64,000 bases of DNA, taken from the NCBI GenBank assembly GCA_036984305.1, contig BQWY01000001.1, positions 1,447,501 to 1,511,500 on the forward strand, in the 5' to 3' direction. The notes beneath the pieces are model-generated. The model made no database searches. It worked only from the letters and a program-made list of their open reading frames with translations, and was not told where the DNA came from. The position numbers and the translations under genes are program-made. Source of the stretch: Nitrospira sp. GTDB lineage: Bacteria > Nitrospirota > Nitrospiria > Nitrospirales > Nitrospiraceae. This document shows, piece by piece, positions 4,537 through 10,718 of the stretch; the stretch's first letter is position 1, and every line of letters starts with the position of its first letter.

Positions 4537-6328
4537 TTAAGGCCGTGTCACGGTCAGGGTGACTGGCACGCCGGTATTGCCGGCGGAAGAGCTCGCCGTC
4601 ACACTGACGGTCGACGTGCCGGCCGGTGTGCCGGTCGCCGCACCACCACCGGAATTCGTTGCCGGTGTCGATGAATCACTCCCGCCACAGCTCAGCAGCC
4701 CCGCGACAGCCAGCATGATCACACAGCCTGAGAGGAGGCTGAAGAGGCCTCGACCGGTCCCGCTTCGTCGCATGAGGAAACCGGCAGGGAACAGCACGAT
4801 CGGCGCGAACAGAGCGGCGAACATCGTGGCGGGTGGTCCGGAAGGGAGAGACGCGACCGGTCCGCCGTTCGTGGTGATGGTCAGGACCGTGTTGATGGGT
4901 CCGCCGGCGGGTGTCACGCTCGGCGGGTTGAAACTGCAGGCCGCGCCTGGCGGCAGGTTGCCGCACGCGAAGCTGACTGGTTGAGAAAATCCGGCATCCG
5001 GCGTGACGGTGATCGTCGCGGTGCCGCTATTGCCGGCTGACACGGTGAGTTGATTGGGAGTCGCGCCGAGCGTGAAGGGCGCCGTCCCGTCGGTCGAGCA
5101 GGGCCCCCCGATGGCCTCGTCACAGATTTGGGCGACGAAGGTCGTTTCACCGGTCGGCGCCTGCGCTTGGCCCTGTATCCATTGACCGTCCGGCGACATG
5201 CCGGTGACGGACAGCAACGTGATACCAGTCATATTGACGCCGTTGGCGATGAGCAGATCCCTCAGATCCTTGATTCCAGCGTTGCTCCCGGATTCGGCCC
5301 AGCGAAACGCGGTTCCCGGATTCCATCCCAGAACGACACCTTGATACTGGAGAAACGTGGAATTGGAGATCCCCACGACAATCTTGCCGTTGTCGCTCAC
5401 GGCGGTGGCTGCCGCGGTCGTGTGTCCGGGGAGGGGACCGATCGGTTGCATGGTCGGCTGGCCGGTTGCACTTGGAATGACCCATCGGAAGGCAGTCGAT
5501 GATGTGGACGTTCCAACCTGTCCGACGACGACCGTTCCATCGGCCGAGACTGCCGTGGCCTGCGAGGGTGCGGTTCCCGGAATGAGATCCGTGAACGAGC
5601 CACCCGTCCACCCGGAATGCCCCTTTCCGTTGAAACGCCCCGGCCGGAAATTCCGCTTCACCGACGATCACATTGCCATTGCTGCTCACGCCGTAAGCGC
5701 GAGAAGGGCCGGTTGCACTCGCCAGCGAGTTGAGATCTTGCATGCCATTGGCTTGTGTCCAGCGGAATGCATGCTCGGTCGTGCCGGCGACGACTTGCGA
5801 GTACCCTACCACGATGGAACAGTCTTGGTTCGTGTCGGTCCCGAACGACGTGCGGCTGCCGTTGTTCGCCGGATCGAGTGTGCCGAGGTCCAGGGAAGCG
5901 CCCTCCAGGAGCCAGCGAAACGCATGGTAGGGCGTACTCGTCCCATTATCCTGATAGCCGACCACGCACGTCCCAGTACTATTGAGATTGGTTCCACCGC
6001 CTTGGATATTGGGGGGATTCGCCGGCTGAAGTTGCTGAGTCGAAAAGACCTGGGTGATTTTGATGATCTCTACTTCGACGGGAACGGGCGTACCGCTGAC
6101 TTCACCGACAATGATTTGGCCTCCCGATTTGAGTTTGCCCTCGGAGATACTCTCATAGAGCCGACCTAAGGCTTCAAGGTTCTGCCCGAGGTCGGCATCA
6201 AGATACTGGGTTCTGGTGGTTTGCGCGGCCGCCATGTCAGCCGTTAGCCACGATACGAGTAGTACCAGCACACCGGCGAGCATGTGCCGGTGATGAAGAA
6301 CGGAACACGACACGGTACGTTGGAGCAT
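4537..6328 (-). pseudogene. HAF-repeat exported protein, frameshifted
   Basis: A single gene split into two frames. The 5' part starts at 6328 after AAGGAGG, with a signal peptide (LVLLVSWLTADMAAAQT) and repeats such as VGYQDNGTSTPYHAFRW and VGYSQVVAGTTEHAFRW, typical of the HAF family of extracellular repeat proteins. Around 5611-5613 (a CCC run) one extra base breaks the frame. Removing it restores AFRWTGGSFTDLIPG and joins a second open frame that runs to 4537. The second half continues HAF repeats, then an Ig-like domain (FTLGATPNQLTVSAGNSGT), a membrane segment (MFAALFAPIVLFPAGFLMRR), a Cys-containing segment and a Thr/Ser/Gly-rich tail. A true frameshift and a sequencing error are both possible. 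Confidence 0.8.
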
Positions 6329-6520: not shown

Positions 6521-7780
6521 ATGCGTGCCTCACCAACCATCCCATTGATTTCTTGCTCGAGACGGTCGGCGGCTCTGGCTCTTTTGCTGTGCTGCCCGGG
6601 CGCAGCCCTCGTGCTCCCTGTCGAGGCTCAGGCCGCTGCCTGTGAGGCTGTCGTCGGCGCATGGACTTGGTTCGTCGGGGGAGAGGTGACGATCAAGGCC
6701 GATGGGACGTTCACGCAAAAGTCAGGCAACTCGGGTACATGGGAATGCTTGGATGCGGCCAAGAGCGAGGTTGCCCTCAAATGGAAGCAAGGTGGCTTCC
6801 TCAACCGGCTCGCTCTCGCCGATGGAGGAACCAAATTAGTGAGTACCGACCCCTCCCAGTCCTTCGTGAAGGCGACCAGGATCAATCCCGAAACCCCGCT
6901 CGCCGACTTGTTGACTCCTCGTCAGGACACGAACAGTGGCGCTTCCTCTTCGTCTCGCCGGCCCAGTGGGCAGCCTGGTGGCACCGTGCCGATTAAACCG
7001 TCCACACCTCTTGCAAGTTCGAAAAAGAAAGGTCCCCCTTCATATGAATCTCCTCAAGGGTTTGTGAGCTCCGATCCGAAGGTCGAGGCGCGGTTCAAGC
7101 AAGGTTATGACTTGTTCACCACCAAGAAGGACTATGCCGCGGCCTTTCCGATCCTGGTGGAAGTGGCGAATGCCGGCCATCCCCGTGCTCAAGCGCTTTT
7201 GGGGCGGATCTATCAGGAAGGATTGGGCCGCGCAAAGGATTACAAGCAGGCCGCCGAGTGGTACGGCAAGGCGGCGGCGCAGGGCCATCGCGCCGCGCTA
7301 TTTTCGCTGGGAAATTTGTATTTCGAAGGCGACGGCGTGCCGAAGGATCAAGTCAAAGCCATCCACCTCTATCAGCAGAGCGCAGACAAAGGCTACGACC
7401 AGGCGGAGTTCATCTTGGGACTCTCTTATGAATTCGGCTGGGGTGGACTTCCCAGGGATCGTCGGACAGCGATCAAGTGGCTGGATCGAGCCGGCCGCCA
7501 CAAAAACGGCGGGGCTGGTTTTATTGCGACCTGGTTGGAGAAGCCCGACACGCCGCATTTCAAGGATGAAGTTCAATTGGGGAAATATATCGGCGCCCAA
7601 ATCAATCGAAGGGCTGCTGCGGCGTTCGGCGGTGGCGGGAGTAGTGGCGGCGATAACCCCTGCAGCAGCTATTCCGGACCTGCGGCGGCCGCCTGCAATC
7701 AGGGAGATCGAGGAGCGATCGACCGATACAGGGAGCATCAAGAAACCGGGGAGGATAAGCGAAAGTATGGTGTCCAGTGA
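6521..7780 (+). CDS. Exported Sel1-repeat (TPR-like) protein
   Basis: 419 residues after a perfect AAGGAGG. Residues about 1-39 form a signal peptide (SAALALLLCCPGAALVLP...AQA). A small domain of about 90 residues follows (WTWFVGGEVTIKADGTFTQKSGNSGTW), resembling a lipocalin-like/DUF beta sheet. After a Ser/Pro-rich linker, at least three Sel1 repeats occupy about 210-330 (AQALLGRIYQEGLGRAKDYKQAAEWYGKAA, AALFSLGNLYFEGDGVPKD, AEFILGLSYEFGWGGLPRD). The end is Gly/Ser-rich with two cysteines. Sel1 repeats bind proteins, so a periplasmic scaffold role is likely; partners are unknown. Confidence 0.85.
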   Translation: MRASPTIPLISCSRRSAALALLLCCPGAALVLPVEAQAAACEAVVGAWTWFVGGEVTIKADGTFTQKSGNSGTWECLDAAKSEVALKWKQGGFLNRLALADGGTKLVSTDPSQSFVKATRINPETPLADLLTPRQDTNSGASSSSRRPSGQPGGTVPIKPSTPLASSKKKGPPSYESPQGFVSSDPKVEARFKQGYDLFTTKKDYAAAFPILVEVANAGHPRAQALLGRIYQEGLGRAKDYKQAAEWYGKAAAQGHRAALFSLGNLYFEGDGVPKDQVKAIHLYQQSADKGYDQAEFILGLSYEFGWGGLPRDRRTAIKWLDRAGRHKNGGAGFIATWLEKPDTPHFKDEVQLGKYIGAQINRRAAAAFGGGGSSGGDNPCSSYSGPAAAACNQGDRGAIDRYREHQETGEDKRKYGVQ

Positions 7781-7918
7781 TCGTCTCTTCCGCGCCACCA
7801 CCGCGATAGGCGGTGTGCGCAGCACGCCGGGGCTCACGGCAAGGCCGGCTGCGGCGCGTCGGTTATTCGATGCAGGGGCTGTGGACTCAAACAACCTGTC
7901 GGAAGGAGACAAGAAGAC

Positions 7919-9571
7919 TCATGCACCTCTCGTTCCCATGAGTCTCAAGCATTCGTGGACGAACTGCACTGCCATGGCCCCCTCGCCCACAGCCGAGGCT
8001 ACACGCTTGGTGGAGCCGAGTCGCACGTCGCCCGCTGCGAAGACGCCAGGACGACTGGTCTCGAGGAAGAAGGGACTCCGATCGGCCGTCCAGTACGGAG
8101 AGGCTGACACCAGTGGTCCTGTCTTCACGAATCCCTTTGAGTCGGTCTCTATCTCAGCCGGCAGCCAACCGGTGCAGGGGGTGGCGCCGATAAAGGTAAA
8201 CACGGCAGGGGTCTGAACCGTGCGTGTGCTGTCGGTGCGGCAGTTCTTGATTTCGACGGCCTCCAACCGCTGGTCCCCCATCAAGCGACACACCTCCATG
8301 TCCAACAGCACTTCGATGTTGTCAGCACTTTCGATACGGTCCGCTAAGTAGTTGGACATGCCCTTACGCAGGTCTCCGCCACGAAGAAGGAGGTACACGC
8401 GCCGGGTCTCTTCCGACAGAAACATAGCGGCTTGCCCGGCAGAATTGCCCCCGCCGACGACAATCACCTCCGAGCCGCGGCAGAGCTGCAGCTCGGTCAG
8501 GGTCGCAGCGTAGTAGACGCCCAAGCCCTCGTATTGTTCGAGTCTGGGAACGCTCAGCTTGCGATAGTCGGCGCCCGTCGCGATCAACAGACATCGCGTC
8601 GAGACATGCTCGCCGTCGAACCATACGAGTGTCTGGCCCTTCTCAAACTCGAGGCGCGTCACAGGGGAGGGAGACGAGAACTGTACGCCGAATTTCTGGG
8701 CTTGCAAAATGGAACGGTTCGCGAGGTCGCTACCGGAAATGCCGGTCGGGAAGCCGAGATAGTTCTCGATTTTCGAAGAGGTGCCGGCCTGTCCTCCCGG
8801 GGCACAGGCATCGATCACGACGGTGCTCAACCCCTCCGACGATGCGTATACGGCTGCAGCCAGCCCCGCTGGCCCTCCACCGACGATCACCAAGTCATAG
8901 CTCCGTTGCGTGAGCGGCCGTCTGACGCCGATGAGGTCGGCCAACTCTCGAGTCGAGGGATTGCGCAACAGCGGCTCCGATCCAAAGACAATCACCGGCA
9001 CGTCAGCCTCGGTCAGGCCGAAGCTCTGGAGCAGGATGCCGACCTGAGGGTCATGATCGACATCGACCCACGTGAACGGCACCTGATTTCTGGCAAGGAA
9101 GTGACGGATGCGGAGGGTGTCGCGCGAGGAACCGGCCCCGACCACTCGAAGCCCTTGAAAGTCGGATGCCACAAGCAACTCACGGCGCGCAATAAACGCC
9201 CGGAACAACAGCTCGCCGAGCGCTGGGCGTTCGCTCATGATACGTCTGATATCGCCGGCTGAGATTTCGAAGACCTCGGTGTCGCCGCGAGCCAATGCAC
9301 TGATCAGAGCTGGGCGGCCGGTCATCAGGCTGACGTCACCGCCAAATGCGTGCCGTTGGTGCAAGGCCACTCGCTTTGTTTCGCCGCTCGAATGCTCGAC
9401 AATCTCCACCGCGCCGCGCTCGACGACAAAAAACTTGTATTCACGGTCTCCGGCTTTAAAGAGGTACTCCCCATCACGTAACACCCGGTGCGTCCCGAAT
9501 TTGGCCAGCGTGGCAACGTGGACGTCGTCGAGCGTGGGAAACGCGATTTTGTGCAGGTCCAATTCGGCCAT
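7919..9571 (-). CDS. cNMP-binding / thioredoxin-like / thioredoxin-reductase-like flavoprotein without CxxC
   Basis: 550 residues, start preceded by GAGGAGGTGG. Residues about 15-130 form a cyclic-nucleotide-binding-type domain (AFGGDVSLMTGRPALISALA); 140-215 a thioredoxin/glutaredoxin-like fold (FTWVDVDHDPQVGILL, VPVIVFG); 225-545 a pyridine nucleotide-disulfide reductase with FAD motif GGGPAGLAAA (231-240), NAD(P) motif VVGGGNSAGQA, and C-terminal FAD motif GVFAAGDVR. Where thioredoxin reductases carry the redox CxxC, this protein has GLGVYYAATLTELQLC, so the disulfide is absent and ordinary thioredoxin reduction is unlikely. The UBP zinc-finger gene lies 40 bases upstream in the same direction, suggesting an operon. 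Confidence 0.9.
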   Translation of the reverse strand: MAELDLHKIAFPTLDDVHVATLAKFGTHRVLRDGEYLFKAGDREYKFFVVERGAVEIVEHSSGETKRVALHQRHAFGGDVSLMTGRPALISALARGDTEVFEISAGDIRRIMSERPALGELLFRAFIARRELLVASDFQGLRVVGAGSSRDTLRIRHFLARNQVPFTWVDVDHDPQVGILLQSFGLTEADVPVIVFGSEPLLRNPSTRELADLIGVRRPLTQRSYDLVIVGGGPAGLAAAVYASSEGLSTVVIDACAPGGQAGTSSKIENYLGFPTGISGSDLANRSILQAQKFGVQFSSPSPVTRLEFEKGQTLVWFDGEHVSTRCLLIATGADYRKLSVPRLEQYEGLGVYYAATLTELQLCRGSEVIVVGGGNSAGQAAMFLSEETRRVYLLLRGGDLRKGMSNYLADRIESADNIEVLLDMEVCRLMGDQRLEAVEIKNCRTDSTRTVQTPAVFTFIGATPCTGWLPAEIETDSKGFVKTGPLVSASPYWTADRSPFFLETSRPGVFAAGDVRLGSTKRVASAVGEGAMAVQFVHECLRLMGTRGA

Positions 9572-9611
9572 CTCTCCACCTCCTCACGCCGGTAGCAAGT
9601 TCTTTCCGTCA

Positions 9612-9896
9612 CTACCGCAAGGACCGCGTGACACGCGCCGGCACGTCCAGCTCCATTTGATCCAGGTAGCACCAGGCCCACCGCTCGCCGCGCTCGAACG
9701 AGGCCATCACCGGATGAGTCGTCTGCGTGAAGTGTTTGGTGGCATGGCGATTGGGCGAGCTATCGCAACAGCCGACATGACCACAGGTCAGGCAGAGACG
9801 GAGATGAACCCAGGACGATCCAATTTTCAGGCATTCCTCACAGCCTTCAGTGCGAGCCGTCACGGGCTGAACAGAACCCACGTGTGCACACGACAT
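9612..9896 (-). CDS. UBP-type zinc-finger protein
   Basis: 94 residues after GGAGGTGACTC. The sequence has the spacing of the ZnF-UBP domain, best known in eukaryotic deubiquitinases: CEECLKIGSSWVHLRLCLTCGHVGCCDSSPNRHATKHF followed by HPVMASFERGERWAWCY, supplying Cys and His zinc ligands. The domain fills almost the whole protein. In bacteria it is found as a small stand-alone protein. It precedes the cNMP/TrxR-like flavoprotein in a likely two-gene operon. Whether it binds a C-terminal peptide, as in eukaryotes, is unknown. Confidence 0.88.
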   Translation of the reverse strand: MSCAHVGSVQPVTARTEGCEECLKIGSSWVHLRLCLTCGHVGCCDSSPNRHATKHFTQTTHPVMASFERGERWAWCYLDQMELDVPARVTRSLR

Positions 9897-10271
9897 GAGT
9901 CACCTCCGCGGCTGATCGTCATGAGAGGGTCTTATTCCCCCATGATCGTAATCCCTGGACCTTCGAGAATCCACTCTGTTCCAGTGGGACTGTTCCAAAC
10001 GCCATAGTCGGCCTGCGAAAGGAGACGGCAGGTTGAGCCAATCGTCACCTGGTGAGAGATCTCACAGCAGGTCCCCCTTTCTAGCTCGACTGTTCTAGCC
10101 CATGCCGAGAAGCTCATTGAGACGGCGATTGTCCCTTCGAATGCCTGTCGATTTTTCCTATCTCGTTCGACTACAAGATAAGAAGGGCGCCGCTGGCAAA
10201 GCCATGTCGGCGGTGCGGCGAAGCCGTCGGGCTACCTTATCAACCGTTATATGGAAAACGAGGAGAATGTC
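9897..10271. other. Divergent intergenic region
   Basis: Separates the UBP zinc finger (minus) from the SRPBCC protein (plus) and should hold both promoters. No clear sigma-70 promoter was identified by eye. It contains a 61-codon minus-strand frame listed separately. Confidence 0.4.
9932..10117 (-). CDS. Possible small protein, unrecognised
   Basis: 61 codons from an ATG without a clear Shine-Dalgarno. The sequence (VELERGTCCEISHQVTIGS, DYGVWNSPTGTEWILEGPG) has a balanced, protein-like composition with alternating hydrophobic residues, unlike most shadow frames. It could be a small beta-rich protein or the remnant of a larger gene. It ends 35 bases before the UBP zinc-finger gene in the same direction. 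No family was recognised. Confidence 0.35.
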   Translation of the reverse strand: MSFSAWARTVELERGTCCEISHQVTIGSTCRLLSQADYGVWNSPTGTEWILEGPGITIMGE

Positions 10272-10718
10272 ATGGGAACCAATACGATCCGGCTTCATCG
10301 CGTGTTTGGAGCAACGCCAGAGCGAGTGTATCGTGCGTTCTTGGATGCGGACGCCATGGTGAAATGGTTGCCGCCCAATGGCTTTACCGGCAAGGTGCAT
10401 CACATGGACCCCACAGTCGGTGGGAGCTTCAAGATGTCATTTACCAATTTCACGACTGGCAAGAGCCATTCGTTTGGGGGGCAGTATCTCGAGCTCGTGC
10501 CGCATGAACGGCTCCACTACACGGACAACTTCGACGATCCAAATCTGCCAGGAGAGATCCACGTGACCGTCACGCTGAAGCCAGTCTCATGCGGTACCGA
10601 GGTCCACATCCTGCAGGAGGGGGTGCCCGACGTCATCCCGGCGGAAGCCTGCTACATGGGTTGGCAAGAATCGCTGATCCTGCTTGGGAAGCTGGTCGAA
10701 GCGGAGATTTCAGACTGA
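10272..10718 (+). CDS. SRPBCC / AHSA1-type START-like protein
   Basis: 148 residues from the ATG at 10272, chosen over the one at 10251 because AGGAG lies six bases before it. The fold signature of Activator-of-Hsp90-ATPase-1-like (AHSA1) proteins is clear: HRVFGATPERVYRAFLDADAMVKWLPP, GGSFKMSFTNF, LVPHERLHYTDNFDD and the helix QESLILLGKLVEAE. These proteins form a helix-grip hydrophobic cavity; in bacteria they often relate to stress or small-molecule binding. Substrate unknown. Single gene. Confidence 0.85.
   Translation: MGTNTIRLHRVFGATPERVYRAFLDADAMVKWLPPNGFTGKVHHMDPTVGGSFKMSFTNFTTGKSHSFGGQYLELVPHERLHYTDNFDDPNLPGEIHVTVTLKPVSCGTEVHILQEGVPDVIPAEACYMGWQESLILLGKLVEAEISD

Follow-up and report, generated by a model that had tools for sequence, protein, structure and literature searches.

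The window, a 64,000-nucleotide stretch of contig BQWY01000001.1 from a 4.35 Mb Nitrospira sp. genome (G000; nearest relatives Nitrospira MAGs), contains two adjacent genes on the reverse strand, one for a stand-alone UBP-type zinc finger and the other for a flavoprotein of the thioredoxin reductase (TrxR) type. A preliminary description had placed both in one operon; the genes are indeed there, the UBP gene lying 40 bp upstream of the flavoprotein gene on the same strand, and they likely form one operon. The NCBI pipeline already names the products, each separately, 'UBP-type zinc finger domain-containing protein' and 'cyclic nucleotide-binding domain-containing thioredoxin-disulfide reductase'. 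The locus comprises:

9901-9907 (-), Shine-Dalgarno-like GGAGGTG 5' of the UBP start (sequence)
9612-9896 (-), stand-alone UBP-type zinc finger gene, 94 aa (PF02148 E 9e-16; PDB 2IDA E 8e-36)
9645-9842 (-), zf-UBP domain, residues 19-84 (Pfam zf-UBP match)
9765-9770 (-), vicinal Cys43-Cys44 of the UBP, followed by Asp45 where HDAC6 has its tail-binding Arg (C43 and C44 in 95/95, D45 in 93/95 distinct UBPs)
9576-9585 (-), Shine-Dalgarno-like GAGGAGGTGG 5' of the flavoprotein start (sequence)
7919-9571 (-), gene for a cNMP-type / glutaredoxin-like / CxxC-less TrxR-type flavoprotein, 550 aa (ORF with Pfam, TIGRFAM and PDB comparison)
9230-9487 (-), cNMP_binding domain, residues 29-114, with A88 in place of the presumed phosphate-binding Arg (PF00027 E 6e-15)
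8915-9163 (-), degenerate glutaredoxin-like domain, residues 137-219, without CxxC (PF00462 E 0.004; site columns of the family alignment)
7979-8899 (-), FAD / NAD(P)H TrxR-type core, residues 225-531 (PF07992, Pyr_redox_2, E 2e-30; TIGR01292 below cut-off)
8498-8509 (-), CxxC-equivalent site A355-A356-T357-L358 (alignment with the genome's own TrxR, CATC)
8480-8482 (-), Cys364, kept only within the cNMP-fused subfamily (78/81)

The pair is flanked downstream by a Sel1-repeat gene and upstream by an AHSA1/SRPBCC gene, both on the opposite strand. The only one of the window's neighbours seen again is AHSA1, a homologue of which lies ~4.7 kb from the pair in the relative L002. A scan of 7700-10300 found no sigma-70-type promoter, and a weakly terminator-like hairpin at 7895-7913 (-) is no better than chance. 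Elsewhere in the window, a HAF-repeat (TIGR02913) gene at 4537-6328 (-) has an apparent frameshift near 5610, its repeats passing from the ORF at 5147-6328 into an ORF in another frame at 4537-5661, which may reflect a pseudogene, a sequencing error or a phase change.

In the flavoprotein core, Pyr_redox_2 matches over its full length, the motifs GGGPAG and GGGNSAG are present, and the best PDB matches are all TrxRs. The TIGR01292 score is 224.3 bits, below the equivalog cut-off of 343.45; a canonical TrxR encoded elsewhere in the genome reaches 409.9 bits and carries the motif CATC. Alignments with the PDB TrxRs and with this own-genome TrxR agree in placing the CxxC site at A355-L358. The YYAATL that had been read as a replaced CxxC does occupy that position, because the canonical C-A-T-C aligns on A355-A356-T357-L358. 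The CxxC is missing in all 81 family members compared (the window protein and 80 relatives selected with the flavoprotein as sole criterion), and the relatives have Y-A/G-A-T-x-x-E or a close variant at the site. Judged by these alignments, CxxC loss is a trait of the whole family, and the active site does not bear out the name 'thioredoxin-disulfide reductase' given by NCBI. Glu360, Arg397, Ser406, Tyr408 and Leu409 do not vary, even when the distant short and receiver-fused forms are included. Cys364 is present in 78/81 of the cNMP-type members; several short and receiver-fused forms with an otherwise retained core have Thr, Leu, Tyr, Phe or Ile there instead. Conservation of this residue thus ends with the cNMP-type subfamily, and the family as a whole shares no cysteine. 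One genome scan gave 507 relatives among its candidates.

The domain layout proposed earlier stands for the reductase core and for the cNMP_binding domain, which is above its Pfam cut-off, and more weakly for the thioredoxin-like fold, which holds by sequence because residues 137-219 match glutaredoxin or thioredoxin. The Glutaredoxin match (PF00462) is weak in the window protein (E 0.004), reaches 6e-5 in the relative L017 and exceeds the Pfam cut-off in one family member (23.5 vs 22.9 bits); the CxxC of this domain is also absent in the family alignment. Like TrxB (TIGR01292), the flavoprotein has FAD and NAD(P)H domains across the full core, but it lacks the CxxC, adds cNMP and glutaredoxin-like domains and coexists with a separate canonical TrxB. 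AhpF (TIGR03140) likewise places a thioredoxin-fold module ahead of a TrxR core; here, however, neither module has a CxxC, the score is 156 bits vs a cut-off of 503, and no AhpC lies alongside. TrxR-type ferredoxin/flavodoxin-NADP reductases and YpdA/Bdr share the fold and the lack of the TrxR dithiol, and pass electrons to an external partner, as is proposed for the flavoprotein. Matches to the ferredoxin-NADP reductase type are nevertheless much weaker (1e-16 to 1e-10 vs 4e-43 for TrxR), and the motifs of the window family, YYAATxxE and MSxYL, are different.

The N-terminal cNMP_binding domain scores 55.4 bits against a Pfam cut-off of 27.5 and retains the Gly-Glu/Asp of the phosphate-binding cassette. 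Residue 88, which we take from the PF00027 consensus to be the phosphate-binding Arg position, is A, I, S, V, K or another residue and is Arg in 0/81. A search of the genome for nucleotidyl cyclases of class III (PF00211) found none. The cyclic-nucleotide-type sensor announced earlier is thus present as a domain, and classical cNMP sensing by it appears disfavoured. The front end of the flavoprotein is swappable, being cNMP-like, a receiver or absent. Sensorless cores are found in L086, L088 and L167, and L159, L160, L161 and L163 carry a response-regulator receiver instead (Response_reg E 8e-16 in L161), with a cNMP-histidine kinase gene adjoining the receiver-flavoprotein forms. The kinase of the actinobacterial locus L159 (7777-9441 (-), 555 aa) combines cNMP_binding, HATPase_c and a C-terminal zf-UBP in one protein, and it is encoded next to another UBP gene and the gene of a CxxC-less flavoprotein with a receiver.

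The small protein is the product of the genome's sole UBP gene in a profile search. It scores 58 bits for zf-UBP (Pfam cut-off 22.7) with the zinc-ligand residues kept, and chance or annotation error is excluded by its match to a solved structure, 2IDA, at E 8e-36; this R. palustris protein, deposited as 'hypothetical protein', matches strongly over 90 residues. C19, C22, C35, C38, C43, C44, H51, H55 and H61 are invariant in a 34-row UBP alignment, and Cys19, Leu32, Arg33, Cys35, Cys38, Cys43, Cys44, Ser47, His51 and His55 across 95 distinct bacterial UBPs. The ZnF-UBPs of HDAC6, USP5, USP16 and USP49 belong to the same Pfam family and share the zinc-ligand layout. The bacterial form differs in a WVHLR insertion, in the vicinal cysteines, in Asp or Ser at the tail-anchoring Arg, and in occurring by itself or as part of antiporter or kinase fusions. 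Among such fusions, a Na+/H+ antiporter/exchanger with a C-terminal UBP occurs in Actinomycetota (L127; L145/L168, L168:6003-7865 (+)). A UBP-type zinc finger with the CCDSS kept is also encoded by the Tunturiibacter phage Tunturi_3 as gp86 (L089:3962-4312 (+)), among small unknown genes and an RNA 2'-phosphotransferase gene.

HDAC6 cannot bind the tail of ubiquitin without R1155 and Y1156 (PMC12000391). The R1155 position aligns with either Asp45 or Ser46 of the bacterial protein, according to which alignment is used, and is Arg in 0/95 bacterial UBPs; pocket residues Trp75 and Tyr77 are largely retained. Reading of Pup/UBact tails was a tempting alternative, since Nitrospira and Actinomycetota have such systems. 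The Pup ligase family (PF03136) was found in only 9/54 genomes and is absent from most UBP-bearing ones, all five pseudomonadotal genomes included, and a role as Pup/UBact-tail reader was rejected on this ground. The preliminary suggestion of protein-tail sensing in the ubiquitin mode is accordingly not borne out: such reading is unlikely because the anchoring Arg is never present and the UBP does not track the Pup ligase. Another ligand is possible, Trp75 and Tyr77 being largely kept. The window's genome itself has four Pup-ligase-family genes in two pairs (G000:C1:935922-940918 and 2723457-2727821), an apparently duplicated UBact/Pup-like pathway. Eukaryotic relatives have Cys-Gly at the position of Cys43-Cys44, and the unusual vicinal pair is a candidate redox site. 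It is also invariant in UBPs without an adjacent flavoprotein, and therefore need not serve this enzyme.

The association of the two genes was followed across bacteria, adjacency being counted in the 80 loci picked by the flavoprotein alone (the window sequence makes 81) and UBP genes in GC-rich loci being sought by six-frame profile searches. An intact UBP gene adjoins the flavoprotein gene in 25/80 loci and does not in 55/80; among 39 genomes whose flavoprotein has no UBP nearby, 21 carry one elsewhere. Adjacent pairs are assigned by record title to Nitrospirota, Acidobacteriota, Planctomycetota, Verrucomicrobiota, Cyanobacteria, Actinomycetota, Dadabacteria and Gammaproteobacteria, and the pairing spans at least seven phyla, with the UBP on either side and in various orientations. 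UBP genes above the family cut-off are infrequent, occurring in 2/148 Nitrospirota, 27/119 Actinomycetota and 5/200 Pseudomonadota genomes, some of the sampled genomes being incomplete. Both genes are present in 20 of the 119 actinomycetotal genomes (27 with UBP, 30 with the flavoprotein; Fisher p 5e-10, kinship ignored; p 1.5e-9 without the centre genome). The flavoprotein was sought with a profile of the glutaredoxin-like and Rossmann parts at E<=1e-25, and one actinobacterial match, G271, spans the Rossmann part only. The flavoprotein occurs in all five pseudomonadotal UBP genomes, each time adjacent, and in 18/200 overall (p 3e-6, kinship again ignored), while Nitrospirota are uninformative (2/148 and 2/148).

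On a 101-row tree the UBP gene is upstream in 21 cases, downstream in 17, convergent in 4 and divergent in 1, with gaps often <100 bp; adjacency must have been gained or lost at least 16 times, and counting arrangement as well gives 21 changes. As the tree includes loci chosen for carrying a UBP, the proportion of UBPs on it is biased, but the diversity of arrangements is not. Pairing is thus conserved in many phyla, the two genes co-occur significantly, and their arrangement has changed repeatedly. The lack of conserved pairing that would have refuted the preliminary description was not observed, and its view of an uncharacterised pair with a redox half is supported. A search of the open-access literature found no description of the pair. 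The two proteins are not obligate partners, because an intact UBP is missing beside the flavoprotein in 55/80 loci, and many UBPs stand in unrelated contexts. A decayed UBP-like remnant lies just downstream of a Nitrospira flavoprotein gene that has no intact adjacent UBP (L007:2368-2757 (+)). A long frame in L038 (846 aa), considered as a UBP-flavoprotein fusion, proved to be an out-of-frame artefact, and no true fusion was found.

Several neighbourhoods contain stress genes. The order dnaJ-cbpM-clpB-trxA-UBP-flavoprotein recurs on Rhodococcus and Streptomyces plasmids, in Mycobacterium gordonae and in one randomly sampled actinomycete; ClpB genes lie close to the pair in L038, L041 and L065 as well, and this context is essentially that of one actinobacterial clade. 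A Paraburkholderia plasmid (L088) carries PsiE, a short flavoprotein, the UBP, Hsp20 and a ClpK-like disaggregase, whose best NCBIfam match is the ClpK model at 1286 bits, under the cut-off of 1900. This set is reminiscent of the tLST heat-resistance island, although the passages on tLST that were consulted mention neither a UBP nor such a flavoprotein (PMC8290217). On an Agrobacterium plasmid a PhyR/EcfG-like sigma gene lies two genes upstream of the pair, and in close Nitrospira relatives an OpuAC-type osmoprotectant ABC transporter follows directly downstream. These contexts point to stress and protein quality control, osmotic and general stress. Of all these neighbours the window itself has none, neither chaperone, sigma and OpuAC genes nor the tLST core (hsp20-clpG(K)). 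Two further arrangements were seen: in one genome of Pseudomonadota the pair is immediately preceded by an Abi_C (abortive infection C-terminus) gene (L165:332-1114 (+)), and an orphan UBP of Bryobacterales is followed by apparent ABC transporter ATPase and permease genes (L096:1444-3122 (+)), which resembles the OpuAC-type arrangement of the Nitrospira relatives.

The reading that we favour, at roughly even credence, is that the pair would be a conserved, horizontally mobile stress-response redox module in which the UBP acts as a dedicated partner or adaptor and not as a ubiquitin reader. From its family, the flavoprotein is expected to bind FAD and NAD(P)H, and the N-terminal sensor would gate the catalytic core. 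In TrxR the flavin is normally discharged through the CxxC (PMC12796991); as the flavoprotein lacks this dithiol, its reduced flavin would have to pass electrons to an acceptor outside the core. The most likely acceptor would be a partner thiol or zinc-thiolate (the UBP, the neighbouring thioredoxin of Actinomycetota or a stress-damaged client), followed by a quinone, a metal or oxygen, and lastly by nothing at all, the protein then being a pure sensor. The UBP would bring the flavoprotein to its target.

A different reading, doubtful in our judgement yet a real contender, takes the flavoprotein as an NAD(P)H oxidase or a flavin redox sensor of oxygen, peroxide, quinone or metal with a signalling output or input, the UBP being co-regulated without contact. 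It would account for the absence of any cysteine conserved across all subfamilies, for the receiver fusions, which put the core at a two-component output, and for the many flavoproteins without a nearby UBP; yet shared stress regulation does not usually produce adjacency this often and independently, or such co-occurrence with a gene this rare. A narrower version of the partnership, which we think unlikely, is a split thioredoxin reductase: the dithiol-less flavoprotein would reduce the Cys43-Cys44/zinc centre of the UBP, which would serve as a redox-switchable targeting factor for ClpB/DnaK-type machinery.

Slightly less probable still is that the UBP recognises free C-termini of proteins (ubiquitin-like, Pup/UBact or an exposed peptide) and that the flavoprotein then works on the client so bound, in a system like the aggregate recognition of HDAC6. 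The ZnF-UBP of HDAC6 binds free diglycine tails in aggregates (PMC12000391), and the kept zinc-ligand pattern with W75 and Y77, the disaggregase operons and the Pup-ligase-type genes of the window's genome would fit; against this stand the R1155 equivalent, which is not Arg in 95/95 (PMC12000391), and the UBP-bearing genomes, most of which, the five pseudomonadotal ones among them, lack the ligase. It is very improbable that the protein is an ordinary disulfide reductase in which Cys364 does the work of the CxxC, as in single-Cys YpdA/Bdr: the residue is near the lost CxxC in sequence and well conserved in the cNMP-type subfamily, but a catalytic role was rejected since it is replaced in several receiver-fused and short subfamilies. 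Equally remote is the absence of any functional link, with two mobile stress genes hitch-hiking, which the plasmid-borne and patchy distribution (UBP in 2/148 Nitrospirota genomes) would suit but which is opposed by four relative arrangements, the short gaps and the UBP fused to a cNMP-kinase whose gene adjoins that of a receiver-flavoprotein.

Relatives of the flavoprotein are present in hundreds of bacterial genome records, often under the annotation 'thioredoxin-disulfide reductase'. This annotation misleads, because a protein without the CxxC cannot act as a thioredoxin-disulfide reductase by the known mechanism. If the redox module works as proposed, it would provide a first testable role for bacterial UBP fingers, and it may show what the UBP domain did before, or does apart from, ubiquitin.
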